Shown here one piece after another: positions 1,261-39,335 of a stretch of DNA of 64,000 nt. Origin of the DNA: Sinohyriopsis cumingii (taxonomy: Eukaryota > Mollusca > Bivalvia > Unionida > Unionidae); contig CM068832.1 in assembly GCA_028554795.2 (NCBI GenBank), forward strand, positions 87,881,011 to 87,945,010, written 5' to 3'. A program made the position numbers and the translations under genes. How positions within the stretch are numbered: position 1 is the first letter of the stretch; every line of letters starts with the position of its first letter. The notes beneath the pieces were generated by a model. That model was not told the origin of the DNA. It worked only from the letters and a program-made list of their open reading frames with translations, and searched no databases.

Positions 1261-1268
1261 TATATTAG

Positions 1269-2339: not shown

Positions 2340-2434
2340 AGTTGTACATTCTGTTTGGCTTTAAAAAAAATGTTGAGCCTCTTGGCAACATGTGAGTTTG
2401 TGTTAATTTCTATCTAGATCATATTTTGTATTTT

Positions 2435-2752: not shown

Positions 2753-2786
2753 TTATGAACTATACTAGTCTGATGTAGGAAAACAA

Positions 2787-5238: not shown

Positions 5239-5246
5239 TATATAAG
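5239..5246 (+). promoter_or_regulatory. Canonical TATA variant in one unit
   Basis: This is the only copy where the TATA-like element reads TATATAAG; the others read TATGTAAG. If the cluster is a promoter, this copy would be the strongest. Confidence 0.3.
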
Positions 5247-5340
5247 AGTTGTACTTTCTGTTTGGCTTAAAAAAAATGTTGAGCCTCTTGGCAACATGTG
5301 AGTTTGTGTTAATTTCTATCTAGATCATATTTTGTATTTT

Positions 5341-14053: not shown

Positions 14054-16959
14054 TTATGATTTTTTTAAAATATGGTACACATGGCTGAAAATGTGCTTGT
14101 TGTGACTAGATAACTCTAACCACTGTCTAGTTCCAGTAGAGTTATCTCTCTTAAATGCAATGGAGTACCTGGTTATGTCATTGTCAAATTGACAATCTAG
14201 CATTGTTCTATATGGCAGTGTGTGACATGCATGCCCAGGTAGGACAGAAAGTATATTTATTTCACAGAACATTAGCATTGAGGTATATGGAGAAACAATT
14301 GGTACCGTGATACCTAAAGGAAAGAATAGCCTCACAGTGTATCCATAGAAACGCATACATGTTGGCGGCATTTATGAACTATACTAGTCTGATGTAGGAA
14401 AACAAATGTGTGCTGAACAGTTTTGGTCAAATATTGAAAGTTCTTTAAGAATAAAATGTATGAAATCTTCAGAAAATAGCACAGGTTGGCTTTGGATGGG
14501 GACTTTTGATAACTATAGCTATGATAGATATAGACTTGTGTTACCTGATGCCTTTATGTATGTGCTGTTACCTCCTAGATTGGAATGCATGCAACAAAAT
14601 AAGTTATGGAAACATAATATAGTTGATTTTGGCCAAATATTGGCTATTTTACCTGCAAAAGATGAAAAATCATGTGTACAAAAACAGCTATCTTGTTCTT
14701 GTAAGGCATGCCATAAACCAGGATAGAGAACACTCTAAGTACACTTGTAGAGAGATCACTTGTACCATGTGGGATGTTCTGGCATGAGTAATTTTTAGGT
14801 AATATATTAAGGATATGGTATTCCTTCACACTTTGATTTGAATCGTCCTGCTCTAATTGTCCTTTTTTTTTTTTACACTTTCCTGCCTTGAAATTGTTCA
14901 TGTAGTTAGTTCAGTTCTCTTGCATTCCCTTTTGTTGAAGTAGCAGTGAATACCAACAAACAAGAACAGTTTATTTAAGTCATCATTTCCCATTGGCACT
15001 TGTATAAGCCCAATTATAATCTACTATTGACTTTCAATTAATCCTATTTCTTTCTGTCAAGCTGCTCTTGTGGAATTTCCATGTTTGGTCCAACATTACA
15101 GAATGATAACCATTTTAGTCACACAGTGCGTATTCATTCCATTCAAATCCACACTGTTCTTGAAACTTTGCATCCCATCGCAAGAATCCAAATTGGCATG
15201 AGATGATATCTGCATGGTTATGGAAGGCTGCACTCTACATGCCGGCATTGTAGAAAATATGAACTATGTGATATGAAAGAGCTGCGTCATCTTAGAAATT
15301 AAAATTACATGACTCTCGAGGTCCCCACTAAATATAGGAGTCTAAATGTTAGGTTCTCACTTTATCAGTAATGTATTTTGAGATAATTTAATTGCAATGA
15401 AGTTAATACAGGTTGTTGATGAACTCATCTATATTACATGGATACTGTATTAGAGGTTACCACACCTTATGTATATCATTCAGTTATCTCCCTTACACCA
15501 GTCATAACATTTCAAGGAAATAAAATCTCACATTTTCAGTGACTGGTTATGAAAATAAAGAGAAGATTTGTGAAGTATTATATTAGCCCTCAATCTTGAT
15601 GCAAATGTAAGTAGAAGCAATTTAATAATTTCTCACAGTAAAGTTTACAAGTTTAAAAACTGATAAGGTATGTTCTGCTTGGATCTGAGATAAGTTTATC
15701 TCTATCTTATGCTAATTATTATTAAATTCTTATGTAGAAGAAATATACTTTATATGTATCTATATTATCTAAATTATTCACCCTTTTATATTAGATGGAA
15801 ATGAACACAACTTCACTTGAAATTTTGGTACCTGTAAGGGATGTTATAGCACAGTTGCCTTTGGGCTGTCCTTGGACCTGTTGGGCCCTGCCCCATATAT
15901 TTGTCCAAGGTAAGGTCATCAAACTTTCACTTCTCATTTCTCGCATTGCTGATTTTGCCTCCTTTAATTCCTTTATCATAAGCTACCTCTCCCTTTTAGA
16001 TAAACACATTCCTCCTGTTTTTAACTCCATTTGATGTGCTATACTTAGTGTTTATATTTGGCATTTTTCTGTATTTTATTCCCCTAATTTCACCCCCCAA
16101 TCCAACATAACCACTTATAAGCTGTGATTTACTATATCTGGTGACTGATTGGCTTATTGAAACAATTTTATTCACATTACAAAGGAGGAAAGCTTACTAT
16201 TTGTGTTACAATGAGGATGGGTAGGTGGACCTTTGTGTGAGGACTGGTGGTTAGTGACCTCTTGTATCTGCAGATAGTGTAAAGTGGTCAAAGCTTATAC
16301 TTTATAATAAGATTGGGTCATGTCCACTGGTCTCTGATGTTAAGTTCTGCACCTACCAAACAAATATAAATTCCTTTCTTTTAGGTGAATTGTACATTTT
16401 GAAGTAGGACAGGTACATACTATTTGGTACATTGACCTTTGACCTAGTTATTACATAATATGACATAATGTGATTTATCCCATATCACCTATGTGAAGTT
16501 CAATAAGTGCTGATATGAATAAGATACAACTCATAGTTGAAAGAATTCATTTTATTTCAAAAGATGATTTTGATGGTGAAGCAAAAGTATGAAAACAATA
16601 GTTCAAACAGCTCAATGACATTTCTATACACATTCATATAAGACATAGGCTAGTACCTCATCAAATTGTTTTTCACAAGTGTGACTAAGTATATTTGTTA
16701 CTTATACAGTCCCAAACTATTTCACAGATTATTGGAAAAATTAAGGTTTGCTATAGGTATAACGGTACCAATTGCGCAAGTCCAGGTGGGCGGAGCTTAA
16801 GGTGTATGGAACATTGTATTCAGAATTAAAGAACAACTCTAGCTGTGATTGGTGCATTATGTAAGAGTTGTACATTCTGTTTGGCTTTAAAAAAATGTTG
16901 AGCCTCTTGGCAACATGTGAGTTTGTGTTAATTTCTATCTAGATCATATTTTGTATTTT
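14054..16959. repeat. Long unit L5 (2906 bp)
   Basis: Complete copy that matches L1 closely up to about 15.7 kb (12-T run, CTCGAGG) and diverges from it after that. It has a private GAAATTTTGGTA near 15821. Confidence 0.93.
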
Positions 16960-19864
16960 TTATGATTTTTTTAAAATATGGTATACATGGCTGAAAATGT
17001 GCTTGTTGTGACTAGATAACTCTAACCACTGTCTAGTTCCAGTAGAGTTATCTCTCTTAAATGCAATGGAGTACCTGGTTATGTCATTGTCAAATTGACA
17101 ATCTAGCATTGTTCTATATGGCAGTGTGTGACATGCATGCCCAGGTAGGACAGAAAGTATATTTATTTCACAGAACATTAGCATTGAGGTATATGGAGAA
17201 ACAATTGGTACCGTGATACCTAAAGGAAAGAATAGCCTCACAGTGTATCCATAGAAACGCATACATGTGGGCGGCATTTATGAACTATACTAGTCTGATG
17301 TAGGAAAACAAATGTGTGCTGAACAGTTTTGGTCAAATATTGAAAGTTCTTTAAGAATAAAATGTATGAAATCTTCAGAAAATAGCACAGGTTGGCTTTG
17401 GATGGGGACTTTTGATAACTATAGCTATGATAGATATAGACTTGTGTTACCTGATGCCTTTATGTATGTGCTGTTACCTCCTAGATTGGAATGCATGCAA
17501 CAAAATAAGTTATGGAAACATAATATAGTTGATTTTGGCCAAATATTGGCTATTTTACCTGCAAAAGATGAAAAATCATGTGTACAAAAACAGCTATCTT
17601 GTTCTTGTAAGGCATGCCATAAACCAGGATAGAGAACACTCTAAGTACACTTGTAGAGAGATCACTTGTACCATGTGGGATGTTCTGGCATGAGTAATTT
17701 TTAGGTAATATATTAAGGATATGGTATTCCTTCACACTTTGATTTGAATCGTCCTGCTCTAATTGTCCTTTTTTTTTTTTACACTTTCCTGCCTTGAAAT
17801 TGTTCATGTAGTTAGTTCAGTTCTCTTGCATTCCCTTTTGTTGAAGTAGCAGTGAATACCAACAAACAAGAACAGTTTATTTAAGTCATCATTTCCCATT
17901 GGCACTCGTATAAGCCCAATTATAATCTACTATTGACTTTCAATTAATCCTATTTCTTTCTGTCAAGCTGCTCTTGTGGAATTTCCATGTTTGGTCCAAC
18001 ATTACAGAATGATAACCATTTTAGTCACACAGTGCGTATTCATTCCATTCAAATCCACACTGTTCTTGAAACTTTGCATCCCATCGCAAGAATCCAAATT
18101 GGCATGAGATGATATCTGCATGGTTATGGAAGGCTGCACTCTACATGCCGGCATTGTAGAAAATATGAACTATGTGATATGAAAGAGCTGCGTCATCTTA
18201 GAAATTAAAATTACATGACTCTCGAGGTCCCCACTAAATATAGGAGTCTAAATGTTAGGTTCTCACTTTATCAGTAATGTATTTTGAGATAATTTAATTG
18301 CAATGAAGTTAATACAGGTTGTTGATGAACTCATCTATATTACATGGATACTGTATTAGAGGTTACCACACCTTATGTATATCATTCAGTTATCTCCCTT
18401 ACACCAGTCATAACATTTCAAGGAAATAAAAATCTCACATTTTCAGTGACTGGTTATGAAAATAAAGAGAAGATTTGTGAAGTATTATATTAGCCCTCAA
18501 TCTTGATGCAAATGTAGTAGAAGCAATTTAATAATTTCTCACAGTAAAGTTTACAAGTTTAAAAACTGATAAGGTATGTTCTGCTTGGATCTGAGATAAG
18601 TTTATCTCTATCTTATGCCAATTATTATTAAATTCTTATGTAGAAGAAATATACTTTATATGTATCTATATTAACTAAATTATTCACCCTTTTATATTAG
18701 ATGGAAATGAACACAACTTCACTTGAAATTTGGGTACCTGTAAGGGATGTTATAGCACAGTTGCCTTTGGGCTGTCCTTGGACCTGTTGGGCCCTGCCCC
18801 ATATATTTGTCCAAGGTAAGGTCATCAAACTTTCACTTCTCATTTCTCGCATTGCTGATTTTGCCTCCTTTAATTCCTTTATCATAAGCTACCTCTCCCT
18901 TTTAGATAAACACATTCCTCCTGTTTTTAACTCCATTTGATGTGCTATACTTAGTGTTTATATTTGGCATTTTTCTGTATTTTATTCCCCTAATTTCACC
19001 CCCAATCCAACATAACCACTTATAAGCTGTGATTTACTATATCTGGTGACTGATTGGCTTATTGAAACAATTTTATTCACATTACAAAGGAGGAAAGCTT
19101 ACTATTTGTGTTACAATGAGGATGGGTAGGTGGACCTTTGTGTGAGGACTGGTGGTTAGTGACCTCTTGTATCTGCAGATAGTGTAAAGTGGTCAAAGCT
19201 TATACTTTATAATAAGATTGGGTCATGTCCACTGGTCTCTGATGTTAAGTTCTGCACCTACCAAACAAATATAAATTCCTTTCTTTTAGGTGAATTGTAC
19301 ATTTTGAAGTAGGACAGGTACATACTATTTGGTACATTGACCTTTGACCTAGTTATTACATAATATGACATAATGTGATTTATCCCATATCACCGATGTG
19401 AAGTTCAATAAGTGCTGATATGAATAAGATACAACTCATAGTTGAAAGAATTCATTTCATTTCAAAAGATGATTTTGATGGTGAAGCAAAAGTATGAAAA
19501 CAATAGTTCAAACAGCTCAATGACATTTCTATACACATTCATATAAGACATAGGCTAGTACCTCATCAAATTGTTTTTCACAAGTGTGACTAAGTATATT
19601 TGTTACTTATACAGTCCCGAACTATTTCACAGATTATTGGAAAAATTAAGGTTTGCTATAGGTATAACGGTACCAATTGCGCAAGTCCAGGTGGGCGGAG
19701 CTTAAGGTGTATGGAACATTGTATTCAGAATTAAAGAACAACTCTAGCTGTGATTGGTGCATTATGTAAGAGTTGTACATTCTGTTTGGCTTTAAAAAAA
19801 TGTTGAGCCTCTTGGCAACATGTGAGTTTGTGTTAATTTCTATCTAGATCATATTTTGTATTTT
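16960..19864. repeat. Long unit L6 (2905 bp)
   Basis: Complete copy with a private GGTATACATGG near 16980, a five-C tract near 19000 (usually six) and CACCGATGTG near 19392 shared with L7. Confidence 0.93.
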
Positions 19865-22768
19865 TTATGATTTTTTTAAAATATGGTACACATGGCTGAA
19901 AATGTGCTTGTTGTGACTAGATAACTCTAACCACTGTCTAGTTCCAGTAGAGTTATCTCTCTTAAATGCAATGGAGTACCTGGTTATGTCATTGTCAAAT
20001 TGACAATCTAGCATTGTTCTATATGGCAGTGTGTGACATGCATGCCCAGGTAGGACAGAAAGTATATTTATTTCACAGAACATTAGCATTGAGGTATATG
20101 GAGAAACAATTGGTACCGTGATACCTAAAGGAAAGAATAGCCTCACAGTGTATCCATAGAAACGCATACATGTGGGCGGCATTTATGAACTATACTAGTC
20201 TGATGTAGGAAAACAAATGTGTGCTGAACAGTTTTGGTCAAATATTGAAAGTTCTTTAAGAATAAAATGTATGAAATCTTCAGAAAATAGCACAGGTTGG
20301 CTTTGGATGGGGACTTTTGATAACTATAGCTATGATAGATATAGACTTGTGTTACCTGATGCCTTTATGTAAGTGCTGTTACCTCCTAGATTGGATTGCA
20401 TGCAACAAAATAAGTTATGGAAACATAATATAGTTAATTTTGGCCAAATATTGGCTATTTTACCTGCAAAAGATGAAAAATCATGTGTACAAAAACAGCT
20501 ATCTTGTTCTTGTAAGGCATGCCATAAACCAGGATAGAGAACACTCTAAGTACACTTGTAGAGAGATCACTTGTACCATGTGGGATGTTCTGGCATGAGT
20601 AATTTTTAGGTAATATATTAAGGATATTGTATTCCTTCACACTTTGATTTGAATCGTCCTGCTCTAATTGTCCTTTTTTTTTTACACTTTCCTGCCTTGA
20701 AATTGTTCATGTAGTTAGTTCAGTTCTCTTGCATTCCCTTTTGTTGAAGTAGCAGTGAATACCAACAAACAAGAACAGTTTATTTAAGTCATCATTTCCC
20801 ATTGGCACTTGTATAAGCCCAATTATAATCTACTATTGACTTTCAATTAATCCTATTTCTTTCTGTCAAGCTGCTCTTGTGGAATTTCCATGTTTGGTCC
20901 AACATTACAGAATGATAACCATTTTAGTCACACAGTGCGTATTCATTCCATTCAAATCCACACTGTTCTTGAAACTTTGCATCCCATCGCAAGAATCCAA
21001 ATTGGCATGAGATGATATCTGCATGGTTATGGAAGGCTGCACTCTACATGCCGGCATTGTAGAAAATATGAACTATGTGATATGAAAGAGCTGCGTCATC
21101 TTAGAAATTAAAATTACATGACTCTCGAGGTCCCCACTAAATATAGGAGTCTAAATGTTAGGTTCTCACTTTATCAGTAATGTATTTTGAGATAATTTAA
21201 TTGCAATGAAGTTAATACAGGTTGTTGATGAACTCATCTATATTACATGGATACTGTATTAGAGGTTACCACACCTTATGTATATCATTCAGTTATCTCC
21301 CTTACACCAGTCATAACATTTCAAGGAAATAAAATCTCACATTTTCAGTGACTGGTTATGAAAATAAAGAGAAGATTTGTGAAGTATTATATTAGCCCTC
21401 AATCTTGATGCAAATGTAAGTAGAAGCAATTTAATAATTTCTCACAGTAAAGTTTACAAGTTTAAAAACTGATAAGGTATGTTCTGCTTGGATCTGAGAT
21501 AAGTTTATCTCTATCTTATGCCAATTATTATTAAATTCTTATGTAGAAGAAATATACTTTATATGTATCTATATTAACTAAATTATTCACCCTTTTATAT
21601 TAGATGGAAATGAACACAACTTCACTTGAAATTTGGGTACCTGTAAGGGATGTTATAGCACAGTTGCCTTTGGGCTGTCCTTGGACCTGTTGGGCCCTGC
21701 CCCATATATTTGTCCAAGGTAAGGTCATCAAACTTTCACTTCTCATTTCTCGCATTGCTGATTTTCCCTCCTTTAATTCCTTTATCATAAGCTACCTCTC
21801 CCTTTTAGATAAACACATTCCTCCTGTTTTTAACTCCATTTGATGTGCTATACTTAGTGTTTATATTTGGCATTTTTCTGTATTTTATTCCCCTAATTTC
21901 ACCCCCCAATCCAACATAACCACTTATAAGCTGTGATTTACTATATCTGGTGACTGATTGGCTTATTGAAACAATTTTATTCACATTACAAAGGAGGAAA
22001 GCTTACTATTTGTGTTACAATGAGGATGGGTAGGTGGACCTTTGTGTGAGGACTGGTGGTTAGTGACCTCTTGTATCTGCAGATAGTGTAAAGTGGTCAA
22101 AGCTTATACTTTATAATAAGATTGGGTCATGTCCACTGGTCTCTGATGTTAAGTTCTGCACCTACCAAACAAATATAAATTCCTTTCTTTTAGGTGAATT
22201 GTACATTTTGAAGTAGGACAGGTACATACTATTTGGTACATTGACCTTTGACCTAGTTATTACATAATATGACATAATGTGATTTATCCCATATCACCGA
22301 TGTGAAGTTCAATAAGTGCTGATATGAATAAGATACAACTCATAGTTGAAAGAATTCATTTTATTTCAAAAGATGATTTTGATGGTGAAGCAAAAGTATG
22401 AAAACAATAGTTCAAACAGCTCAATGACATTTCTATACACATTCATATAAGACATAGGCTAGTACCTCATCAAATTGTTTTTCACAAGTGAGACTAAGTA
22501 TATTTGTTACTTATACAGTCCCGAACTATTTCACAGATTATTGGAAAAATTAAGGTTTGCTATAGGTATAACGGTACCAATTGCGCAAGTCCAGGTGGGC
22601 GGAGCTTAAGGTGTATGGAACATTGTATTCAGAATTAAAGAACAACTCTAGCTGTGATTGGTGCATTATGTAAGAGTTGTACTTTCTGTTTGGCTTAAAA
22701 AAAATGTTGAGCCTCTTGGAAACATGTGAGTTTGTGTTAATTTCTATCTAGATCATATTTTGTATTTT
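19865..22768. repeat. Long unit L7 (2904 bp)
   Basis: Complete copy. The 106-codon plus ORF is interrupted here by TATGTAAGTG near 20369. It carries GATTTTCCCTCC near 21762, a variant otherwise seen only in certain short units (types near 30646, 36790, 42941, 52160 and 58310). Confidence 0.93.
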
Positions 22769-25672
22769 TTATGATTTTTTTAAAATATGGTACACATGGC
22801 TGAAAATGTGCTTGTTGTGACTAGATAACTCTAACCACTGTCTAGTTCCAGTAGAGTTATCTCTCTTAAATGCAATGGAGTACCTGGTTATGTCATTGTC
22901 AAATTGACAATCTAGCATTGTTCTATATGGCAGTGTGTGACATGCATGCCCAGGTAGGACAGAAAGTATATTTATTTCACAGAACATTAGCATTGAGGTA
23001 TATGGAGAAACAATTGGTACCGTGATACCTAAAGGAAAGAATAGCCTCACAGTGTATCCATAGAAACGCATACATGTGGGCGGCATTTATGAACTATACT
23101 AGTCTGATGTAGGAAAACAAATGTGTGCTGAACAGTTTTGGTCAAATATTGAAAGTTCTTTAAGAATAAAATGTATGAAATCTTCAGAAAATAGTACAGG
23201 TTGGCTTTGGATGGGGACTTTTGATAACTATAGCTATGATAGATATAGACTTGTGTTACCTGATGCCTTTATGTATGTGCTGTTACCTCCTAGATTGGAA
23301 TGCATGCAACAAAATAAGTTATGGAAACATAATATAGTTGATTTTGTCCAAATATTGGTTATTTTACCTGCAAAAGATGAAAAATCGTGTGTACAAAAAC
23401 AGCTATCTTGTTCTTGTAAGGATGCCATAAACCAGGATAGAGAACACCCTAAGTACACTTGTAGAGAGATCACTTGTACCATGTGGGATGTTCTGGCATG
23501 AGTAATTTTTAGGTAATATATTAAGGATATGGTATTCCTTCACACTTTGATTTGAATCGTCCTGCTCTAATTGTCCTTTTTTTTTTTACACTTTCCTGCC
23601 TTGAAATTGTTCATGTAGTTAGTTCAGTTCTCTTGCATTCCCTTTTGTTGAAGTAGCAGTGAACACCAACAAACAAGAACAGTTTATTTAAGTCATCATT
23701 TCCCATTGGCACTTGTATAAGCCCAATTATAATCTACTATTGACTTTCAATTAATCCTATTTCTTTCTGTCAAGCTGCTCTTGTGCAATTTCCATGTTTG
23801 GTCCAACATTACAGAATGATAACCATTTTAGTCACACAGTGCGTATTCATTCCATTCAAATCCACACTGTTCTTGAAACTTTGCATCCCATCGCAAGAAT
23901 CCAAATTGGCATGAGATGATATCTGCATGGTTATGGAAGGCTGCACTCTACATGCCGGCATTGTAGAAAATATGAACAATGTGATATGAAAGAGCTGCGT
24001 CATCTTAGAAATTAAAATTACATGACTCTTGAGGTCCCCACTAAATATAGGAGTCTAAATGTTAGGTTCTCACTTTATCAGTAATGTATTTTGAGATAAT
24101 TTAATTGCAATGAATTTAATACAGGTTGTTGATGAACTCATCTATATTACATGGATACTGTATTAGAGGTTACCACACCTTATGTATATCATTCAGTTAT
24201 CTCCCTTACACCAGTCATAACATTTCAAGGAAATAAAATCTCACATTTTCAGTGACTGGTTATGAAAATAAAGAGAAGATATGTGAAGTATTATATTAGC
24301 CCTCAATCTTGATGCAAATTTAAGTAGAAGCAATTTAATAATTTCTCACAGTAAAGTTTACAAGTTTAAAAACTGATAAGGTATGTTGTGCTTGGAACTG
24401 AGATAAGTTTATCTCTATCTTATGCCAATTATTATTAAATTCTTATGTAGAAGAAATATACTTTATATGTATCTATACTATCTAAATTATTCACCCTTTT
24501 ATATTAGATGGAAATGAACACAACTTCACTTGAAATTTGGGTACCTGTAAGGGATGTTATAGCACAGTTGCCTTTGGGCTGTCCTTGGACCTGTTGGGCC
24601 CTGCCCCATATATTTGTCCAAGGTAAGGTCATCAAACTTTCACTTCTCATTTCTCGCATTGCTGATTTTGCCTCCTTTAATTCCTTTATCATAAGCTACC
24701 TCTCCCTTTTAGATAAAAACATTCCTCCTGTTTTTAACTCCAATTGATGTGATATACTTAGTGTTTATATTTGGCATTTTTCTGTATTTTATTCCCCTAA
24801 TTTCACCCCCCAATCCAACATAACCACTTATAAGCTGTGATTTACTATATCTGGTGACTGATTGGCTTATTGAAACAATTTTATTCACATTACAAAGGAG
24901 GAAAGCTTACTATTTGTGTTACAATGAGGATGGGTAGGTGGACCTTTGTGTGAGGACTGGTGGTTAGTGACCTCTTGTATCTGCAGATAGTGTAAAGTGG
25001 TCAAAGCTTATACTTTATAATAAGATTGGGTCATGTCCACTGGTCTCTGATGTTAAGTTCTGCACCTACCAAACAAATATAAATTCCTTTCTTTTAGGTG
25101 AATTGTACATTTTGAAGTAGGACAGGTACATACTATTTGGTACATTGACCTTTGACCTAGTTATTACAAAATATGACATAATGTGATTTATCCCATATCA
25201 CCTATGTGAAGTTCAATAAGTGCTGATATGAATAAGATAAAACTCATAGTTGAAAGAATTCATTTTATTTCAAAAGATGATTTTGATGGTGAAGCAAAAG
25301 TATGAAAACAATAGTTCAAACAGCTCAATGACATTTCTATACACATTCATATAAGACATAGGCTAGTACCTCATCAAATTGTTTTTCACCAGTGAGACTA
25401 AGTATATTTGTTACTTATACAGTCCCGAACTATTTCACAGATTATTGGAAAAATTAAGGTTTGCTATAGGTATAACGGTACCAATTGCGCAAGTCCAGGT
25501 GGGCGGAGCTTAAGGTGTATGGAACATTGTATTCAGAATTAAAGAACAACTCTAGCTGTGATTGGTGCATTATGTAAGAGTTGTACTTTCTGTTTGGCTT
25601 AAAAAAAATGTTGAGCCTCTTGGAAACATGTGAGTTTGTGTTAATTTCTATCTAGATCATATTTTGTATTTT
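22769..25672. repeat. Long unit L8 (2904 bp)
   Basis: Complete copy. One base fewer near 23421 (AAGGATGCC rather than AAGGCATGCC) lengthens the plus-strand ORF to 126 codons. It also has GATTTTGTCC near 23340. Confidence 0.93.
23121..23501 (+). CDS. Extended 126-residue version of the plus ORF (L8)
   Basis: Same start and N-terminal 98 residues as the 106-residue ORF, with two substitutions (VQILV for GQILA). One base fewer in the AAGGATGCC region opens a different C-terminus with three more cysteines, ending MWDVLA. Whether this copy is ancestral or derived cannot be told from one unit. No family is recognised. Confidence 0.2.
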   Translation: MCAEQFWSNIESSLRIKCMKSSENSTGWLWMGTFDNYSYDRYRLVLPDAFMYVLLPPRLECMQQNKLWKHNIVDFVQILVILPAKDEKSCVQKQLSCSCKDAINQDREHPKYTCREITCTMWDVLA

Positions 25673-28578
25673 TTATGATTTTTTTAAAATATGGTACACA
25701 TGGTTGAAAATGTGCTTGTTGTGACTAGATAACTCTAACCACTGTCTAGTTCCAGTAGAGTTATCTCTCTTAAATGCAATGGAGTACCTGGTTATGTCAT
25801 TGTCAAATTGACAATCTAGCATTGTTCTATATGGCAGTGTGTGACATGCATGCCCAGGTAGGACAGAAAGTATATTTATTTCACAGAACATTAGCATTGA
25901 GGTATATGGAGAAACAATTGGTACCGTGATACCTAAAGGAAAGAATAGCCTCACAGTGTATCCATAGAAACGCATACATGTGGGCGGCATTTATGAACTA
26001 TACTAGTTTGATGTAGGAAAACAAATGTGTGCTGAACAGTTTTGGTCAAATATTGAAAGTTCTTTAAGAATAAAATGTATGAAATCTTCAGAAAATAGCA
26101 CAGGTTGGCTTTGGATGGGGACTTTTGATAACTATAGCTATGATAGATATAGACTTGTGTTACCTGATGCCTTTATGTATGTGCTGTTACCTCCTAGATT
26201 GGAATGCATGCAACAAAATAAGTTATGGAAACATAATATAGTTGATTTTGGCCAAATATTGGCTATTTTACCTGCTAAAGATGAAAAATCATGTGTACAA
26301 AAACAGCTATCTTGTTCTTGTAAGGCATGCCATAAACCAGGATAGAGAACACTCTAAGTACACTTGTAGAGAGATCACTTGTACCATGTGGGATGTTCTG
26401 GCATGAGTAATTTTTAGGTAATATATTAAGGATATGGTACTCCTTCACACTTTGATTTGAATCGTCCTGCTCTAATTGTCAATTTTTTTTTTTACACTTT
26501 CCTGCTTTGAAATTGTTCATGTAGTTAGTTCAGTTCTCTTGCATTCCCTTTTGTTGAAGTAGCAGTGAATACCAACAAACAAGAACAGTTTATTTAAGTC
26601 ATCATTTCCCATTGGCACTTGTATAAGCCCAATTATAATCTACTATTGACTTTCAATTAATCCTATTTCTTTCTGTCAAGCTGCTCTTGTGGAATTTCCA
26701 TGTTTGGTCCAACATTACAGAATGATAACCATTTTAGTCACACAGTGCGTATTCATTCCATTCAAATCCACACTGTTCTTGAAACTTTGCATCCCATCGC
26801 AAGAATCCAAATTGGCATGAGATGATATCTGCATGGTTATGGAAGGCTGCACTCTACATGCCGGCATTGTAGAAAATATGAACTATGTGATATGAAAGAG
26901 CTGCGTCATCTTAGAAATTAAAATTACATGACTTTCGAGGTCCCCACTAAATATAGGAGTCTAAATGTTAGGTTCTCACTTTATCAGTAATGTATTTTGA
27001 GATAATTTAATTGCAATGAAGTTAATACAGGTTGTTGATGAACTCATCTATATTACATGGATATTGTATTAGAGGTTACCACACCTTATGTATATCATTC
27101 AGTTATCTCCCTTACACCAGTCATAACATTTCAAGGAAATAAAATCTCACATTTTCAGTGACTGGTTATGAAAATAAAGAGAAGATTTGTGAAGTATTAT
27201 ATTAGCCCTCAATCTTGATGCAAATGTAAGTAGAAGCAATTTAATAATTTCTCACAGTAAAGTTTACAAGTTTAAAAACTGATAAGGTATGTTCTGCTTG
27301 GATCTGAGATAAGTTTATCTCTATCTTATGCCAATTATTATTAAATTCTTATGTAGAAGAAATATACTTTATATGTATCTATATTAACTAAATTATTCAC
27401 CCTTTTATATTAGATGGAAATGAACACAACTTCACTTGAAATTTGGGTACCTGTAAGGGATGTTATAGCACAGTTGCCTTTGGGCTGTCCTTGGACCTGT
27501 TGGTCCCTGCCCCATATATTTGTCCAAGGTAAGGTCATCAAAGTTTCACTTCTCATTTCTCGCATTGCTGATTTTGCCTCCTTTAATTCCTTTATCATAA
27601 GCTACCTCTCCCTTTTAGATAAACACATTCCTCCTGTTTTTAACTCCATTTGATGTGCTATACTTAGTGTTTATATTTGGCATTTTTCTGTATTTTATTC
27701 CCCTAATTTCACCCCCCAATCCAACATAACCACTTATAAGCTGTGATTTACTATATCTGGTGACTGATTGGCTTATTGAAACAATTTTATTCACATTACA
27801 AAGGAGGAAAGCTTACTATTTGTGTTACAATGAGGATGGGTAGGTGGACCTTTGTGTGAGGACTGGTGGTTAGTGACCTCTTGTATCTGCAGATAGTGTA
27901 AAGTGGTCAAAGCTTATACTTTATAATAAGATTGGGTCATGTCCACTGGTCTCTGATGTTAAGTTCTGCACCTACCAAACAAATATAAATTCCTTTCTTT
28001 TAGGTGAGTTGTACATTTTGAAGTAGGACAGGTACATACTATTTGGTACATTGACCTTTGACCTAGTTATTACATAATATGACATAATGTGATTTATCCC
28101 ATATCACCTATGTGAAGTTCAATAAGTGCTGATATGAATAAGATACAACTCATAGTTGAAAGAATTCATTTTATTTCAAAAGATGATTTTGATGGTGAAG
28201 CAAAAGTATGAAAACAATAGTTCAAACAGCTCAATGACATTTCTATACACATTCATATAAGACATAGGCTAGTACCTCATCAAATTGTTTTTCACAAGTG
28301 AGACTAAGTATATTTGTTACTTATACAGTCCCGAACTATTTCACAGATTATTGGAAAAATTAAGGTTTGCTATAGGTATAACGGTACCAATTGCGCAAGT
28401 CCAGGTGGGCGGAGCTTAAGGTGTATGGAACATTGTATTCAGAATTAAAGAACAACTCTAGCTGTGATTGGTGCATTATGTAAGAGTTGTACTTTCTGTT
28501 TGGCTTAAAAAAAATGTTGAGCCTCTTGGCAACATGTGAGTTTGTGTTAATTTCTATCTAGATCATATTTTGTATTTT
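25673..28578. repeat. Long unit L9 (2906 bp), last long copy
   Basis: The last copy that contains the 1369-bp block. It has ATTGTCAATTTTT near 26476 and GGTGAGTTGTAC near 28003. The latter variant is repeated exactly one short unit later at 29545 and nowhere else that I saw. Confidence 0.93.
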
Positions 28579-28930
28579 TTATGATTTTTTTAAAATATGG
28601 TACACATGGCTGAAAATGTGCTTGTTGTGACTAGATAACTCTAACCACTGTCTAGTTCCAGTAGAGTTATCTCTCTTAAATGCAATGGAGTACCTGGTTA
28701 TGACATTGTCAAATTGACAATCTAGCATTGTTCTATATGGCAGTGTGTGACATGCATGCCCAGGTAGGACAGAAAGTATATTTATTTCACAGAACATTAG
28801 CATTGAGGTATATGGAGAAACAATTGGTACCGTGATACCTAAAGGAAAGAATAGCCTCACAGTGTATCCATAGAAACGCATACATGTGGGCGGCATTTAT
28901 GAACTATACTAGTCTGATGTAGGAAAACAA

Positions 28931-29137
28931 ATGTGTGCTGAACAGTTTTGGTCAAATATTGAAAGTTCTTTAAGAATAAAATGTATGAAATCTGCAGAAA
29001 ATAGCACAGGTTGGCTTTGGGCTGTCCTTGGACCTGTTGGGCCCTGCCCCATATATTTGTCCAAGGTAAGGTCATCAAACTTTCACTTCTCATTTCTCGC
29101 ATTGCTGATTTTGCCTCCTTTAATTCCTTTATCATAA
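28931..29137 (+). CDS. Chimeric 68-residue ORF created by the deletion (first short copy)
   Basis: The first 30 residues are those of the 106-residue ORF with S to A at residue 22. The deletion then joins it to a different frame of the downstream exon-like sequence (AVLGPVGPCPIYLSK), after which it reads through a candidate intron to a stop. It recurs in almost all short units; S15 carries a frame change just after the junction. A good donor, AAG followed by GTAAGG, sits at 29063-29071. Removing the 90-nt candidate intron 29066-29155 would continue the frame to a TAA at 29264-29266, giving 81 residues with a strongly hydrophobic C-terminal third. The coding status is hypothetical. Confidence 0.25.
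   Translation: MCAEQFWSNIESSLRIKCMKSAENSTGWLWAVLGPVGPCPIYLSKVRSSNFHFSFLALLILPPLIPLS
29001..29020. other. Deletion junction of the short unit (first copy)
   Basis: In the long unit two related sequences flank the lost block: 2857-2876 (ATAGCACAG, then GTTGG, then CTTTGG) and 4227-4245 (ATAGCACAG, then TTGC, then CTTTGG). They match over 18 of 20 aligned positions, with one gapped base and one mismatch. The short unit keeps the left version and continues with GCTGTCC from the right version, so the crossover lies within CTTTGG. 4240 minus 2871 is 1369, exactly the long-to-short length difference (2906 against 1537). The same junction recurs once per short unit. Confidence 0.95.
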
Positions 29138-30115
29138 GCTACCTCTCCCTTTTAGATAAACACATTCCTCCTGTTTTTAACTCCATTTGATGTGCTATAC
29201 TTAGTGTTTATATTTGGCATTTTTCTGTATTTTATTCCCCTAATTTCACCCCCCAATCCAACATAACCACTTATAAGCTGTGATTTACTATATCTGGTGA
29301 CTGATTGGCTTATTGAAACAATTTTATTCACATTACAAAGGAGGAAAGCTTACTATTTGTGTTACAATGAGGATGGGTAGGTGGACCTTTGTGTGAGGAC
29401 TGGTGGTTAGTGACCTCTTGTATCTGCAGATAGTGTAAAGTGGTCAAAGCTTATACTTTATAATAAGATTGGGTCATGTCCACTGGTCTCTGATGTTAAG
29501 TTCTGCACCTACCAAACAAATATAAATTCCTTTCTTTTAGGTGAGTTGTACATTTTGAAGTAGGACAGGTACATACTATTTGGTACATTGACCTTTGACC
29601 TAGTTATTACATAATATGACATAATGTGATTTATCCCATATCACCTATGTGAAGTTCAATAAGTGCTGATATGAATAAGATACAACTCATAGTTGAAAGA
29701 ATTCATTTTATTTCAAAAGATGATTTTGATGGTGAAGCAAAAGTATGAAAACAATAGTTCAAACAGCTCAATGACATTTCTATACACATTCATATAAGAC
29801 ATAGGCTAGTACCTCATCAAATTGTTTTTCACAAGTGAGACTAAGTATATTTGTTACTTATACAGTCCCGAACTATTTCACAGATTATTGGAAAAATTAA
29901 GGTTTGCTATAGGTATAACGGTACCAATTGCGCAAGTCCAGGTGGGCGGAGCTTAAGGTGTATGGAACATTGTATTCAGAATTAAAGAACAACTCTAGCT
30001 GTGATTGGTGCATTATGTAAGAGTTGTACTTTCTGTTTGGCTTAAAAAAAATGTTGAGCCTCTTGGCAACATGTGAGTTTGTGTTAATTTCTATCTAGAT
30101 CATATTTTGTATTTT

Positions 30116-31652
30116 TTATGATTTTTTTAAAATATGGTACACATGGCTGAAAATGTGCTTGTTGTGACTAGATAACTCTAACCACTGTCTAGTTCCAGTA
30201 GAGTTATCTCTCTTAAATGCAATGGAGTACCTGGTTATGTCATTGTCAAATTGACAATCTAGCATTGTTCTATATGGCAGTGTGTGACATGCATGCCCAG
30301 GTAGGACAGAAAGTATATTTATTTCACAGAACATTAGCATTGAGGTATATGGAGAAACAATTGGTACCGTGATACCTAAAGGAAAGAATAGCCTCACAGT
30401 GTATCCATAGAAACGCATACATGTGGGCGGCATTTATGAACTATACTAGTCTGATGTAGGAAAACAAATGTGTGCTGAACAGTTTTGGTCAAATATTGAA
30501 AGTTCTTTAAGAATAAAATGTATGAAATCTGCAGAAAATAGCACAGGTTGGCTTTGGGCTGTCCTTGGACCTGTTGGGCCCTGCCCCATATATTTGTCCA
30601 AGGTAAGGTCATCAAACTTTCACTTCTCATTTCTCGCATTGCTGATTTTCCCTCCTTTAATTCCTTTATCATAAGCTACCTCTCCCTTTTAGATAAACAC
30701 ATTCCTCCTGTTTTTAACTCCATTTGATGTGCTATACTTAGTGTTTATATTTGGCATTTTTCTGTATTTTATTCCCCTAATTTCACCCCCCAATCCAACA
30801 TAACCACTTATAAGCTGTGATTTACTATATCTGGTGACTGATTGGCTTATTGAAACAATTTTATTCACATTACAAAGGAGGAAAGCTTACTATTTGTGTT
30901 ACAATGAGGATGGGTAGGTGGACCTTTGTGTGAGGACTGGTGGTTAGTGACCTCTTGTATCTGCAGATAGTGTAAAGTGGTCAAAGCTTATACTTTATAA
31001 TAAGATTGGGTCATGTCCACTGGTCTCTGATGTTAAGTTCTGCACCTACCAAACAAATATAAATTCCTTTCTTTTAGGTGAATTGTACATTTTGAAGTAG
31101 GACAGGTACATACTATTTGGTACATTGACCTTTGACCTAGTTATTACATAATATGACATAATGTGATTTATCCCATATCACCTATGTGAAGTTCAATAAG
31201 TGCTGATATGAATAAGATACAACTCATAGTTGAAAGAATTCATTTTATTTCAAAAGATGATTTTGATGGTGAAGCAAAAGTATGAAAACAATAGTTCAAA
31301 CAGCTCAATGACATTTCTATACACATTCATATAAGACATAGGCTAGTACCTCATCAAATTGTTTTTCACAAGTGAGACTAAGTATATTTGTTACTTATAC
31401 AGTCCCGAACTATTTCACAGATTATTGGAAAAATTAAGGTTTGCTATAGGTATAACGGTACCAATTGCGCAAGTCCAGGTGGGCGGAGCTTAAGGTGTAT
31501 GGAACATTGTATTCAGAATTAAAGAACAACTCTAGCTGTGATTGGTGCATTATGTAAGAGTTGTACTTTCTGTTTGGCTTAAAAAAAATGTTGAGCCTCT
31601 TGGCAACATGTGAGTTTGTGTTAATTTCTATCTAGATCATATTTTGTATTTT
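30116..31652. repeat. Short unit S2 (C-like)
   Basis: Carries GATTTTCCCTCC near 30646 but lacks the AGAAAAGC change that accompanies it in later C units. Confidence 0.92.
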
Positions 31653-33189
31653 TTATGATTTTTTTAAAATATGGTACACATGGCTGAAAATGTGCTTGTT
31701 GTGACTAGATAACTCTAACCACTGTCTAGTTCCAGTAGAGTTATCTCTCTTAAATGCAATGGAGTACCTGGTTATGTCATTGTCAAATTGACAATCTAGC
31801 ATTGTTCTATATGGCAGTGTGTGACATGCATGCCCAGGTAGGACAGAAAGTATATTTATTTCACAGAACATTAGCATTGAGGTATATGGAGAAACAATTG
31901 GTACCGTGATACCTAAAAGAAAGAATAGCCTCACAGTGTATCCATAGAAACGCATACATGTGGGCGGCATTTATGAACTATACTAGTCTGATGTAGGAAA
32001 ACAAATGTGTGCTGAACAGTTTTGGTCAAATATTGAAAGTTCTTTAAGAATAAAATGTATGAAATCTGCAGAAAATAGCACAGGTTGGCTTTGGGCTGTC
32101 CTTGGACCTGTTGGGCCCTGCCCCATATATTTGTCCAAGGTAAGGTCATCAAACTTTCACTTCTCATTTCTCGCATTGCTGATTTTGCCTCCTTTAATTC
32201 CTTTATCATAAGCTACCTCTCCCTTTTAGATAAACACATTCCTCCTGTTTTTAACTCCATTTGATGTGCTATACTTAGTGTTTATATTTGGCATTTTTCT
32301 GTATTTTATTCCCCTAATTTCACCCCCCAATCCAACATAACCACTTATAAGCTGTGATTTACTATATCTGGTGACTGATTGGCTTATTGAAACAATTTTA
32401 TTCACATTACAAAGGAGGAAAGCTTACTATTTGTGTTACAATGAGGATGGGTAGGTGGACCTTTGTGTGAGGACTGGTGGTTAGTGACCTCTTGTATCTG
32501 CAGATAGTGTAAAGTGGTCAAAGCTTATACTTTATAATAAGATTGGGTCATGTCCACTGGTCTCTGATGTTAAGTTCTGCACCTACCAAACAAATATAAA
32601 TTCCTTTCTTTTAGGTGAATTGTACATTTTGAAGTAGGACAGGTACATACTATTTGGTACATTGACCTTTGACCTAGTTATTACATAATATGACATAATG
32701 TGATTTATCCCATATCACCTATGTGAAGTTCAATAAGTGCTGATATGAATAAGATACAACTCATAGTTGAAAGAATTCATTTTATTTCAAAAGATGATTT
32801 TGATGGTGAAGCAAAAGTATGAAAACAATAGTTCAAACAGCTCAATGACATTTCTATACACATTCATATAAGACATAGGCTAGTACCTCATCAAATTGTT
32901 TTTCACAAGTGAGACTAAGTATATTTGTTACTTATACAGTCCCGAACTATTTCACAGATTATTGGAAAAATTAAGGTTTGCTATAGGTATAACGGTACCA
33001 ATTGCGCAAGTCCAGGTGGGCGGAGCTTAAGGTGTATGGAACATTGTATTCAGAATTAAAGAACAACTCTAGCTGTGATTGGTGCATTATGTAAGAGTTG
33101 TACTTTCTGTTTGGCTTAAAAAAAATGTTGAGCCTCTTGGCAACATGTGAGTTTGTGTTAATTTCTATCTAGATCATATTTTGTATTTT
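31653..33189. repeat. Short unit S3 (B-like)
   Basis: Has TAAAAGAAAG near 31915, as B units do, but lacks their CTGTCTTTAAC change. Confidence 0.92.
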
Positions 33190-34725
33190 TTATGATTTTT
33201 TTAAAGTATGGTACACATGGCTGAAAATGTGCTTGTTGTGACTAGATAACTCTAACCACTGTCTAGTTCCAGTAGAGTTATCTCTCTTAAATGCAATGGA
33301 GTACCTGGTTATGTCATTGTCAAATTGACAATCTAGCATTGTTCTATATGGCAGTGTGTGACATGCATGCCCAGGTAGGACAGAAAGTATATTTATTTCA
33401 CAGAACATTAGCATTGAGGTATATGGAGAAACAATTGGTACCGTGATACCTAAAGGAAAGAATAGCCTCACAGTGTATCCATAGAAACGCATACATGTGG
33501 GCGGCATTTATGAACTATACTAGTCTGATGTAGGAAAACAAATGTGTGCTGAACAGTTTTGGTCAAATATTGAAAGTTCTTTAAGAATAAAATGTATCAA
33601 ATCTGCAGAAAATAGCACAGGTTGGCTTTGGGCTGTACTTGGACCTGTTGGGCCCTGCCCCATATATTTGTCCAAGGTAAGGTCATCAAACTTTCACTTC
33701 TCATTTCTCGCATTGCTGATTTTGCCTCCTTTAATTCCTTTATCATAAGCTACCTCTCCCTTTTAGATAAACACATTCCTCCTGTTTTTAACTCCATTTG
33801 ATGTGCTATACTTAGTGTTTATATTTGGCATTTTTCTGTATTTTATTCCCCTAATTTCACCCCCCAATCCAACATAACCACTTATAAGCTGTGATTTACT
33901 ATATCTGGTGACTGATTGGCTTATTGAAACAATTTTATTCACATTACAAAGGAGGAAAGCTTACTATTTGTGTTACAATGAGAATGGGTAGGTGGACCTT
34001 TGTGTGAGGACTGGTGGTTAGTGACCTCTTGTATCTGCAGATAGTGTAAAGTGGTCAAAGCTTATACTTTATAATAAGATTGGGTCATGTCCACTGGTCT
34101 CTGATGTTAAGTTCTTCACCCACAAAACAAATATAAATTCCTTTCTTTTAGGTGAATTGTACATTTTGAAGTAGGACAGGTACATACTATTTGGTACATT
34201 GACCTTTGACCTAGTTATTACATAATATGACATAATGTGATTTATCCCATATCACCTATGTGAAGTTCAATAAGTGCTGATATGAATAAGATACAACTCA
34301 TAGTTGAAAGAATTCATTTTATTTCAAAAGATGATTTTGATGGTGAAGCAAAAGTATGAAAACAATAGTTCAAACAGCTCAATGACATTTCTATACACAT
34401 TCATATAAGACATAGGCTAGTACCTCATCAAATTGTTTTTCACAAGTGTGACTAAGTATATTTGTTACTTATACAGTCCCGAACTATTTCACAGATTATT
34501 GGAAAAATTAAGGTTTGCTATAGGTATAACGGTACCAATTGCGCAAGTCCAGGTGGGCGGAGCTTAAGGTGTATGGAACATTGTATTCAGAATTAAAGAA
34601 CAACTCTAGCTGTGATTGGTGCATTATGTAAGAGTTGTACTTTCTGTTTGGCTTAAAAAAATGTTGAGCCTCTTGGCAACATGTGAGTTTGTGTTAATTT
34701 CTATCTAGATCATATTTTGTATTTT
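33190..34725. repeat. Short unit S4 (D-like)
   Basis: Has AAAGTATGG near 33204. Private changes are ATGTATCAAATC near 33593 and GGCTGTACTTGG near 33632. Its 3' part has TTCTTCACCCAC and GTGTGAC, which precede E units elsewhere. Confidence 0.92.
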
Positions 34726-36262
34726 TTATGATTTTTTTAAAATATGGTACACATGGCTGAAAATGTGCTTGTTGTGACTAGATAACTCTAACCACTGTTT
34801 AGTTCCAGTAGAGTTATCTCTCTTAAATGCAATGGAGTACCTGGTTATGTCATTGTCAAATTGACAATCTAGCATTGTTCTATATGGCAGTGTGTGACAT
34901 GCATGCCCAGGTAGGACAGAAAGTATATGTATTCCACAGAACATTAGCATTGAGGTATATGGAGAAACAATTGGTACCGTGATACCTAAAGGAAAGAATA
35001 GCCTCACAGTGTATCCATAGAAACGCATACATGTGGGCGGCATTTATGAACTATACTAGTCTGATGTAGGAAAACAAATGTGTGCTGAACAGTTTTGGAC
35101 AAATATTGAAAGTTCTTTAAGAATAAAATGTATGAAATCTGCAGAAAATAGCACAGGTTGGCTTTGGGCTGTCCTTGGACCTGTTGGGCCCTGCCCCATA
35201 TATTTGTCCAAGGTAAGGTCATCAAACTTTCACTTCTCATTTCTCGCATTGCTGATTTTGCCTCCTTTAATTCCTTTATCATAAGCTACCTCTCCCTTTT
35301 AGATAAACACATTCCTCCTGTTTTTAACTCCATTTGATGTGCTATACTTAGTGTTTATATTTGGCATTTTTCTGTATTTTATTCCCCTAATTTCACCCCC
35401 CAATCCAACATAACCACTTATAAGCTGTGATTTACTATATCTGGTGACTGATTGGCTTATTGAAACAATTTTATTCACATTACAAAGGAGGAAAGCTTAC
35501 TATTTGTGTTACAATGAGGATGGGTAGGTGGACCTTTGTGTGAGGACTGGTGGTTAGTGACCTCTTGTATCTGCAGATAGTGTAAAGTGGTCAAAGCTTA
35601 TACTTTATAATAAGATTGGGTCATGTCCACTGGTCTCTGATGTTAAGTTCTGCACCTACCAAACAAATATAAATTCCTTTCTTTTAGGTGAATTGTACAT
35701 TTTGAAGTAGGACAGGTACATACTATTTGGTACATTGACCTTTGACCTAGTTATTACATAATATGACATAATGTGATTTATCCCATATCACCTATGTGAA
35801 GTTCAATAAGTGCTGATATGAATAAGATACAACTCATAGTTGAAAGAATTCATTTTATTTCAAAAGATGATTTTGATGGTGAAGCAAAAGTATGAAAACA
35901 ATAGTTCAAACAGCTCAATGACATTTCTATACACATTCATATAAGACATAGGCTAGTACCTCATCAAATTGTTTTTCACAAGTGAGACTAAGTATATTTG
36001 TTACTTATACAGTCCCGAACTATTTCACAGATTATTGGAAAAATTAAGGTTTGCTATAGGTATAACGGTACCAATTGCGCAAGTCCAGGTGGGCGGAGCT
36101 TAAGGTGTATGGAACATTGTATTCAGAATTAAAGAACAACTCTAGCTGTGATTGGTGCATTATGTAAGAGTTGTACTTTCTGTTTGGCTTAAAAAAAATG
36201 TTGAGCCTCTTGGCAACATGTGAGTTTGTGTTAATTTCTATCTAGATCATATTTTGTATTTT
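34726..36262. repeat. Short unit S5 (E-like)
   Basis: Has CACTGTTTAG near 34794 and TTTTGGACAAAT near 35094. It has private changes in GTATATGTATTCC near 34923. It lacks the TATATACATT and GAATAAC changes found at the 3' end of later E units. Confidence 0.92.
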
Positions 36263-37798
36263 TTATGATTTTTTTAAAGTATGGTACACATGGCTGAAAA
36301 TGTGCTTGTTGTGACTAGATAACTCTAACCACTGTCTAGTTCCAGTAGAGTTATCTCTCTTAAATGCAATGGAGTACCTGGTTATGTCATTGTCAAATTG
36401 ACAATCTAGCATTGTTCTATATGGCAGTGTGTGACATGCATGCCCAGGTAGGACAGAAAGTATATTTATTTCACAGAACATTAGCATTGAGGTATATGGA
36501 GAAACAATTGGTACCGTGATACCTAAAGGAAAGAATAGCCTCACAGTGTATCCATAGAAACGCATACATGTGGGCGGCATTTATGAACTATACTAGTCTG
36601 ATGTAGGAAAACAAATGTGTGCTGAACAGTTTTGGTCAAATATTGAAAGTTCTTTAAGAATAAAATGTATGAAATCTGCAGAAAATAGCACAGGTTGGCT
36701 TTGGGCTGTCCTTGGACCTGTTGGGCCCTGCCCCATATATTTGTCCAAGGTAAGGTCATCAAACTTTCACTTCTCATTTCTCGCATTGCTGATTTTCCCT
36801 CCTTTAATTCCTTTATCATAAGCTACCTCTCCCTTTTAGATAAACACATTCCTCCTGTTTTTAACTCCATTTGATGTGCTATACTTAGTGTTTATATTTG
36901 GCATTTTTCTGTATTTTATTCCCCTAATTTCACCCCCCAATCCAACATAACCACTTATAAGCTGTGATTTACTATATCTGGTGACTGATTGGCTTATTGA
37001 AACAATTTTATTCACATTACAAAGGAGGAAAGCTTACTATTTGTGTTACAATGAGGATGGGTAGGTGGACCTTTGTGTGAGGACTGGTGGTTAGTGACCT
37101 CTTGTATCTGCAGATAGTGTAAAGTGGTCAAAGCTTATACTTTATAATAAGATTGGGTCATGTCCACTGGTCTCTGATGTTAAGTTCTTCACCCACCAAA
37201 CAAATATAAATTCCTTTCTTTTAGGTGAATTGTACATTTTGAAGTAGGACAGGTACATACTATTTGGTACATTGACCTTTGACCTAGTTATTACATAATA
37301 TGACATAATGTGATTTATCCCATATCACCTATGTGAAGTTCAATAAGTGCTGATATGAATAAGATACAACTCATAGTTGAAAGAATTCATTTTATTTCAA
37401 AAGATGATTTTGATGGTGAAGCAAAAGTATGAAAACAATAGTTCAAACAGCTCAATGACATTTCTATACACATTCATATAAGACATAGGCTAGTACCTCA
37501 TCAAATTGTTTTTCACAAGTGTGACTAAGTATATTTGTTACTTATACAGTCCCGAACTATTTCACAGATTATTGGAAAAATTAAGGTTTGCTATAGGTAT
37601 AACGGTACCAATTGCGCAAGTACAGGTGGGCGGAGCTTAAGGTGTATGGAACATTGTATTCAGAATTAAAGAACAACTCTAGCTGTGATTGGTGCATTAT
37701 GTAAGAGTTGTACTTTCTGTTTGGCTTAAAAAAATGTTGAGCCTCTTGGCAACATGTGAGTTTGTGTTAATTTCTATCTAGATCATATTTTGTATTTT
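36263..37798. repeat. Short unit S6 (D/C mosaic)
   Basis: Combines the D marker AAAGTATGG (near 36277) with the C marker TTTTCCCTCC (near 36793), and ends with TTCTTCACCCACC. It looks like a recombinant between types. Confidence 0.92.
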
Positions 37799-39335
37799 TT
37801 ATGATTTTTTTAAAATATGGTACACATGGCTGAAAATGTGCTTGTTGTGACTAGATAACTCTAACCACTGTTTAGTTCCAGTAGAGTTATCTCTCTTAAA
37901 TGCAATGGAGTACCTGGTTATGTCATTGTCAAATTGACAATCTAGCATTGTTCTATATGGCAGTGTGTGACATGCATGCCCAGGTAGGACAGAAAGTATA
38001 TTTATTTCACAGAACATTAGCATTGAGGTATATGGAGAAACAATTGGTACCGTGATACCTAAAGGAAAGAATAGCCTCACAGTGTATCCATAGAAACGCA
38101 TACATGTGGGCGGCATTTATGAACTATACTAGTCTGATGTAGGAAAACAAATGTGTGCTGAACAGTTTTGGACAAATATTGAAAGTTCTTTAAGAATAAA
38201 ATGTATGAAATCTGCAGAAAATAGCACAGGTTGGCTTTGGGCTGTCCTTGGACCTGTTGGGCCCTGCCCCATATATTTGTCCAAGGTAAGGTCATCAAAC
38301 TTTCACTTCTCATTTCTCGCATTGCTGATTTTGCCTCCTTTAATTCCTTTATCATAAGCTACCTCTCCCTTTTAGATAAACACATTCCTCCTGTTTTTAA
38401 CTCCATTTGATGTGCTATACTTAGTGTTTATATTTGGCATTTTTCTGTATTTTATTCCCCTAATTTCACCCCCCAATCCAACATAACCACTTATAAGCTG
38501 TGATTTACTATATCTGGTGACTGATTGGCTTATTGAAACAATTTTATTCACATTACAAAGGAGGAAAGCTTACTATTTGTGTTACAATGAGGATGGGTAG
38601 GTGGACCTTTGTGTGAGGACTGGTGGTTAGTGACCTCTTGTATCTGCAGATAGTGTAAAGTGGTCAAAGCTTATACTTTATAATAAGATTGGGTCATGTC
38701 CACTGGTCTCTGATGTTAAGTTCTGCACCTACCAAACAAATATAAATTCCTTTCTTTTAGGTGAATTGTACATTTTGAAGTAGGACAGGTACATACTATT
38801 TGGTACATTGACCTTTGACCTAGTTATTACATAATATGACATAATGTGATTTATCCCATATCACCTATGTGAAGTTCAATAAGTGCTGATATGAATAAGA
38901 TACAACTCATAGTTGAAAGAATTCATTTTATTTCAAAAGATGATTTTGATGGTGAAGCAAAAGTATGAAAACAATAGTTCAAACAGCTCAATGACATTTC
39001 TATATACATTCATATAAGACATAGGCTAGTACCTCATCAAATTGTTTTTCACAAGTGAGACTAAGTATATTTGTTACTTATACAGTCCCGAACTATTTCA
39101 CAGATTATTGGAAAAATTAAGGTTTGCTATAGGTATAACGGTACCAATTGCGCAAGTCCAGGTGGGCGGAGCTTAAGGTGTATGGAACATTGTATTCAGA
39201 ATTAAAGAATAACTCTAGCTGTGATTGGTGCATTATGTAAGAGTTGTACTTTCTGTTTGGCTTAAAAAAAATGTTGAGCCTCTTGGCAACATGTGAGTTT
39301 GTGTTAATTTCTATCTAGATCATATTTTGTATTTT
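37799..39335. repeat. Short unit S7, type E
   Basis: Markers are CACTGTTTAG, TTTTGGACAAAT, TATATACATT (near 39002) and AAAGAATAAC (near 39204). It opens the first full E-A-B-C-D-D block. Confidence 0.92.

Follow-up and report, generated by a model that had tools for sequence, protein, structure and literature searches.

A composite satellite with a MITE-like element, in arrays and as dispersed copies, in the genome of Sinohyriopsis cumingii

The tandem repeat in a 64,000-nt stretch of the Sinohyriopsis cumingii genome (the window; C9:87881011-87945010 of a 2.9-Gb assembly) has a composite unit, made up of a 2.44-kb repeat, B, and a 465-bp element, A, bounded by terminal inverted repeats of 19 bp. 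Arrays of AB units, arrays of B alone, and dispersed A-B-A copies with 4-bp outer duplications of their own were all observed directly. The reading that we favor, with somewhat better than even confidence, is that A inserted into B, that A-B-A segments moved as macrotransposons, and that the arrays were remodeled by deletion, loss of A and unequal exchange. It is this composite, dispersing satellite that is worth following, the size switch seen in the window being ordinary. The movement of satellites between chromosomes is an old open question; because an array, empty and filled sites, a probable scar of A loss, a deletion and dispersed copies are found in one genome, the individual steps become testable across individuals.

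The composite unit and element A

Coordinates given without a contig name count from the first base of the window, so that window position 1 is contig position 1 as used here. The parts of the last long unit are as follows:

25465..25468, + strand: TATA, the left 4-bp target duplication of A within B
25469..25933, + strand: element A, GGTATAACGGTACCAATTG ... CAATTGGTACCGTGATACC, with its ends defined by the dispersed copies
25934..25937, + strand: TAAA, the 4-bp target duplication on the right side of A, differing from TATA by one base
25934..28370, + strand: segment B (~2.44 kb), which also forms A-less tandems on C1, C17 and C18 and in the right-hand part of the C9 array
26095..26114, + strand: ATAGCACAGGTTGGCTTTGG, the left member of the pair of imperfect direct repeats at the break
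26115..27483, + strand: 1369-bp piece of B that is absent from short units, from the long/short comparison
27465..27483, + strand: ATAGCACAGTTGCCTTTGG, the right member of this pair, with 18 matches in 20 aligned columns

The GGTATAACGGTACCAATTG start of A is matched by a near-perfect reverse complement at its end, the inverted repeats being identical at 18 of 19 positions. A has the features of a MITE: it is short and non-coding, bears terminal inverted repeats, and has target duplications of a fixed length of 4 bp. Exact 4-bp duplications flanked four of the six solo A copies that were read. These duplicated solo copies, the inverted repeats, and an A-less B-B junction that reads as an empty site point to A being a MITE. 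Inside the dispersed copies, the inner flanks of A were TATA and TAAA at 19 of 19 loci (L009-L027), indicating that the AB join arose once.

A coding element was rejected. Two and a half units contain 15 frames of at least 70 aa; seven of these were scanned against Pfam, and no match in the seven reached the cut-off (best E 0.064 and 0.72). For a 105-aa frame covering much of A, no Pfam family gave an E of 1 or lower. No Rfam family matched window positions 21600-30600. A Helitron was set aside because of the long inverted repeats and the 4-bp duplications. Neither a transposase nor an autonomous partner of A was found by one search with the terminal inverted repeat (matches unread) and the seven Pfam-scanned frames. 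The 19-bp end of A followed by a different base occurred at 27 unread places genome-wide, against one for the reversed control; that base was A at 24 of the 27 and G at the rest. These places may represent mutated copies or a sister family of elements. Tandem Repeats Finder, with its period limit of 500, was blind to the periods studied here.

One solo A on C1 (L034, C1:3685200-3686199) was only 87% identical and had unmatched flanks; A may long predate the AB unit. The solo A of L038 was identical to the As of young A-B-A copies, suggesting that solo As may in part be collapsed A-B-A copies, like solo LTRs.

Dispersed A-B-A copies and their possible movement

Single copies began at one fixed point of the unit, passed through a full turn and ended about 465 bp further on, which gives the structure A-B-A. 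We analyzed twenty 10-kb stretches (L009-L028), which were picked by hand among the first 100 of the 1375 places that match the undeleted junction; 18 were picked as apparent singles, and the sample is therefore not random. L001-L008 and L043 stood outside further analysis. L018-L020 were counted as one event, and L024 (end beside N bases) and L028 (left end outside the stretch read) were excluded from the duplication count. At 14 of the 16 testable independent loci, two As and the DNA between them, the structure expected of a macrotransposon, lay within one pair of matching 4-bp duplications (ATAT, ATAA, TTAA, TTGA, TTAT or AAAT); the outer 4-mers of L022 and L026 were unmatched. Three loci (L010, L016 and L027) were situated inside another, unrelated short tandem repeat, whose neighboring copies show the uninterrupted, empty site. 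L027, a 6260-bp dimer of the form A-B-A-B-A, is bracketed by just one pair of TTGA. The outer duplications and the uninterrupted neighbors argue for movement en bloc. On C1, 88 exact A starts fell into 55 groups (28 single, 25 pairs, 1 triple and 1 mixed array), and the 25 pairs were spaced at 2.87-3.28 kb.

The left and right As of a dispersed copy differed at 0 to 4 positions in 14 of 19 loci. They were identical in 7 of the 19, and at others, e.g., L014 and L023, both As carried the same changes of their own. More divergent pairs were found at L010 (19 differences), L018-L020 (10 to 14) and L022 (21). The three copies L018, L019 and L020, all on C1, have near-identical flanks and the same duplication, and thus probably belong to larger duplicated segments. 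A marker typical of the C9 array was present in 36 of 36 array As and in 0 of 49 other As read. Among the first 100 of 203 matches to it, pairs about 2.9 kb apart were found elsewhere on C1, C3, C4, C5, C7 and C9, as if the C9 array or its subfamily were a source.

In the scheme that we favor, a non-autonomous 465-bp DNA transposon, A, would have inserted once into the 2.44-kb B with a 4-bp duplication, yielding the 2.9-kb AB unit. A putative transposase supplied in trans would then act on the outer ends of two neighboring As in the same direction, and a whole A-B-A or A-B-A-B-A would move as a macrotransposon, seeding copies and new arrays. We infer from sequence comparison that A is a MITE, that neighboring As served as macrotransposon ends, and that mobility arose in this way. 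Because the units carry a transposable element, any two A-bearing neighbors would form a macrotransposon. A broader proposal, for which we see an even balance, is a self-seeding satellite: the array sheds units, these land elsewhere and may grow into new arrays, and A is lost inside arrays. Counting against the macrotransposon reading are the unmatched outer duplications at L022 and L026, the lack of an autonomous partner in the one search with the terminal inverted repeat, the solo A of L038, and the near-identity of paired As, as LTR pairs would show. Near-identical pairs fit both readings, however, since units within an array are alike, and solo As with 4-bp duplications also fit either.

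The main rival, which we regard as unlikely, treats A-B-A as a non-autonomous element of LTR type (TRIM or LARD-like), with A as the terminal repeat, B as the internal region, and arrays of the form TDR(x)-I(x-1). The terminal direct repeats (A at both ends), solo copies, 4-bp duplications, tandem arrays with common As and near-identical A pairs would all be accounted for. The account of biv-TRIM, an element of bivalves, describes the same architecture, with terminal direct repeats, a non-coding interior, solo repeats and tandem TDR(x)-I(x-1) arrays of up to 58 TDRs (PMC6934838); our A-B-A copies, solo As and tandem arrays resemble it in these respects. By that account (PMC6934838), however, TRIMs are shorter than 1 kb with repeats of 100-250 bp, whereas here A has 465 bp and A-B-A 3.36 kb, A bears 19-bp inverted repeats, and B occurs in tandem without A. 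After the left A, B starts with TAAAGGAAAG, in which no TGG primer site was seen by eye, but this argument is weak because biv-TRIM itself is described there as having no clear PBS (PMC6934838). The other points against an LTR-type element are that A ends in GG..CC with inverted repeats rather than in TG..CA, that no polypurine tract was seen by eye before the right A, and that TATA/TAAA inside B is a near-duplication of 4 bp like the outer ones. Moreover, B stands in tandem with A cleanly absent, at two joins with 156 (100 listed) and 74 exact matches. An LTR-type internal region would not be expected in tandem without its terminal repeat.

A second alternative, less probable than the first, is that extrachromosomal AB circles recombined homologously into solo As, producing A-B-A within the old duplication of the solo copy. 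Solo As with duplications do exist, head-to-tail arrays would be explained as well, and the unlike A pairs (L010, L018-L020 and L022) would fit either this route or an old age of these copies. A recombined pair should, however, split the differences of the target between its two As, and this makes the circle route less likely in view of the seven identical pairs and the changes common to both As at L014 and L023.

The C9 array and the origin of the short unit

Unit segmentation of the window gave 9 complete long units of 2904-2907 bp, with starts from 2226 to 25465, and 23 complete short ones of 1536-1538 bp, with starts from 28371 to 62183, in agreement with the initial annotation, which had described nine long units followed by at least twenty-three short ones. 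The two blocks follow each other head to tail, in register and unmixed within the window, with the period changing from 2904-2907 bp to 1536-1538 bp at 28370/28371. The features of the array are as follows:

1..28370, + strand: long units (A+B), from segmentation; the right end of a block seemingly reaching left to ~C9:87623541
28008, + strand: private G of the last long unit; its counterpart in the first short unit is 29545
28371..64000, + strand: short units (A plus shortened B), from segmentation and junction search; the left part of a 34-unit island
29003..29031, + strand: first copy of the short-unit junction, from exact-match search; equals C9:87910013
39128..46812, + strand: block of five short units, repeated at 54497-62181 with 6 mismatches in 7685 bp
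79109: end of the last unit in the run of 33 short units, from segmentation
79110-82013: long unit near the right end of the island, from segmentation
82014-83553: last short unit of the island, from segmentation; A-less 2442-bp units follow

The marker that the last long and first short units had been said to share proved to be the G at 28008/29545, which was present in these two units and in none of the other 46 (48 units aligned); the claim of a single continuous array is supported. A second diagnostic site read T (26088) in 10 of 10 long units and at 11 of 11 readable dispersed positions, and G (28994) in 34 of 34 short units. The first short unit differed from the last long unit at 7 positions, within a range of 6 to 11 against the ten long units, and by overall distance several others were at least as near to it. 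We consider it very unlikely that the boundary is an artificial join made during assembly: arrays of near-identical units are difficult to assemble, but the four changes of form (long-short, short-long, long-short, and short to A-less) all keep the register, the private base is present on both sides of the boundary, and the junction is confined to this array.

The long and short units differ by one 1369-bp segment, whose exact ends are ambiguous within a common CTTTGG. The score of the imperfect direct repeats at its ends was reached by 0.14% of 2788 random pairs from the unit (4 pairs). The exact 29-bp short junction had 33 matches in 2.9 Gb, all within C9:87910013-87963684 (reversed-pattern control, 0), and its undeleted equivalent had 1375 exact matches genome-wide, being present also in L022, a copy that is 7 to 8% diverged. 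The confinement of all 33 junction matches to the C9 array, the diagnostic base in 34 of 34 short units, and the repeat pair at the break make it well supported that the short form is a deletion derivative, as had been proposed, and that it formed once and locally, in the C9 array. The reverse order, a short ancestral unit lengthened by a 1369-bp insertion with the imperfect direct repeats as an old target duplication, is contradicted by this distribution of the two junctions and has almost no probability.

Beyond the window, the picture changed. The 34 short units segmented form an island, in which a run of 33 is followed by one long unit, one short unit and then 2442-bp units. This short-long-short order lies about 15 kb past the window, and about 200 kb rich in the A-less form comes next. 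The single switch of the initial annotation was thus an effect of the window, the boundary at 25-31 kb being the left edge of an island that also includes one long unit close to its other end. The absence of interspersion holds inside the window and breaks down to its right, and a replacement of the long form by the short one is not supported, as the array resumes beyond the island in a form without the 465-bp part.

The C9 array extends in one direction for about 542 kb between its outermost markers (87623541 to 88165731), a span of which 95 kb was read base by base and 40 kb (C9:87840603-87881010) lies outside the listed marker coverage. It consists, in order, of AB units, shortened units and mostly A-less units, a long head-to-tail run of similar units, as in a satellite. 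Among the matches listed, the A marker recurred from C9:87623541 to 87840602 mostly in steps of about 2.9 kb; a few steps were double, and one of these coincides with an A-less unit (C9:87812064). Right of the island, matches to the A-less junction leave gaps of 5 to 8 kb, a size that would fit AB units or variants.

Similarity among the island units peaked at lag 10 (mean differences 4.35, p 0.0002) and lag 4 (4.93, p 0.0016), with a weaker peak at lag 6 (5.30, p 0.03); most other lags showed nothing (p 0.0012 for the best of the 16 lags tested). As a control for the recurring five-unit block, a shift by one unit gave 19 mismatches in 6148 bp. The lag peaks and this block bear the mark of duplication or unequal exchange that involved several units together. 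In our scheme, one C9 AB unit would have lost 1369 bp between the imperfect direct repeats of 20 bp, and the shortened unit would have spread into the 34-unit island by unequal exchange of blocks of several units. A size switch of this kind, by deletion and then unequal exchange, is ordinary satellite evolution.

A-less units and comparison with known systems

The B-B join on C1, C17 and C18 reads GCTATAGGAAAG, the exact empty site for the TATA duplication; it had 156 exact matches genome-wide, and nearly all of the 100 listed were on these three chromosomes. On C9 the join is GCTATAAAGG, with 74 exact matches (71 on C9 and 3 on other contigs). The extra AA of the C9 join corresponds to the AA of the right flank TAAA in AB units, suggesting that A was lost in C9, probably by excision or by a TA-microhomology deletion. 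This C9 unit, with its AA footprint, would then have expanded across the ~200 kb that follow the island on its right.

In B trees, built without L019 because of its odd length, three C9 A-less units formed a clade (100/100) inside the C9 clade (100/99). C1 A-less units fell inside a young A-bearing group (100/100) with a node of their own (98/87), and a C17 A-less unit was sister to L014 (100/99). Presence and absence of A required 3 state changes on the tree, with two C18 rows left out. Since the C1 and C17 A-less units are placed among A-bearing copies, the GCTATAGGAAAG empty site may reflect precise loss rather than the ancestral state, and we dropped the view that it is certainly ancestral. 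Distances between short and A-less units were not used, as that figure includes the missing A.

C1:76834000-76864000 holds a mixed array of A-less 2438-bp and AB 2906-bp units, of which L030 is the first 10 kb; three A-less units read there were practically identical to one another and near the young dispersed copies. At L032 (C18:80555200-80560699), a lone AB unit stands among A-less units and has a local variant, CACTGTG, in common with these neighbors, indicating exchange within the array regardless of A.

In maize, the macrotransposition of Huang and Dooner (2008) and Wang et al. (2022) reportedly uses the ends of two neighboring direct copies to move the intervening DNA; here, by contrast, a tandem array would supply the pairs, and what is carried is the repeat itself. 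The clam Donax is reported to have tandem-repeat MITEs. In Xenopus, the satellites Xstir and miDNA4 are linked to MITEs (PMC12628747). A MITE and a tandem repeat are combined in both, but in Xenopus and, reportedly, in Donax the tandem repeat lies inside one MITE, whereas here each unit contains a MITE, which delimits the mobile segment. In oysters, satellites are carried by Helentrons, likewise a case of a bivalve satellite dispersed by a mobile element, but the carrier there is a Helentron (PMC7492417) and not, as here, a TIR element with a 4-bp duplication. Tetris of Drosophila virilis is a DNA transposon that shares sequence with a satellite; there, repeats internal to its TIRs became the satellite (PMC4079207), whereas here a separate repeat, B, would have acquired the element. 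The literature searched, to the extent that its texts were accessible, contained no case of a satellite moved by flanking MITEs, and we make no wider claim.

The assembly also contains COX1 sequences, the only purpose for which L042 was used. Read with the invertebrate code, the mitochondrial COX1 resembles that of freshwater mussels (Unionida). C807 carries COX1 twice, 15,961 bp apart, and is possibly a doubled mitochondrial contig. A further COX1, on C1106, scores lower and has more TGA codons; it may come from a male-line mitochondrion or from contamination.
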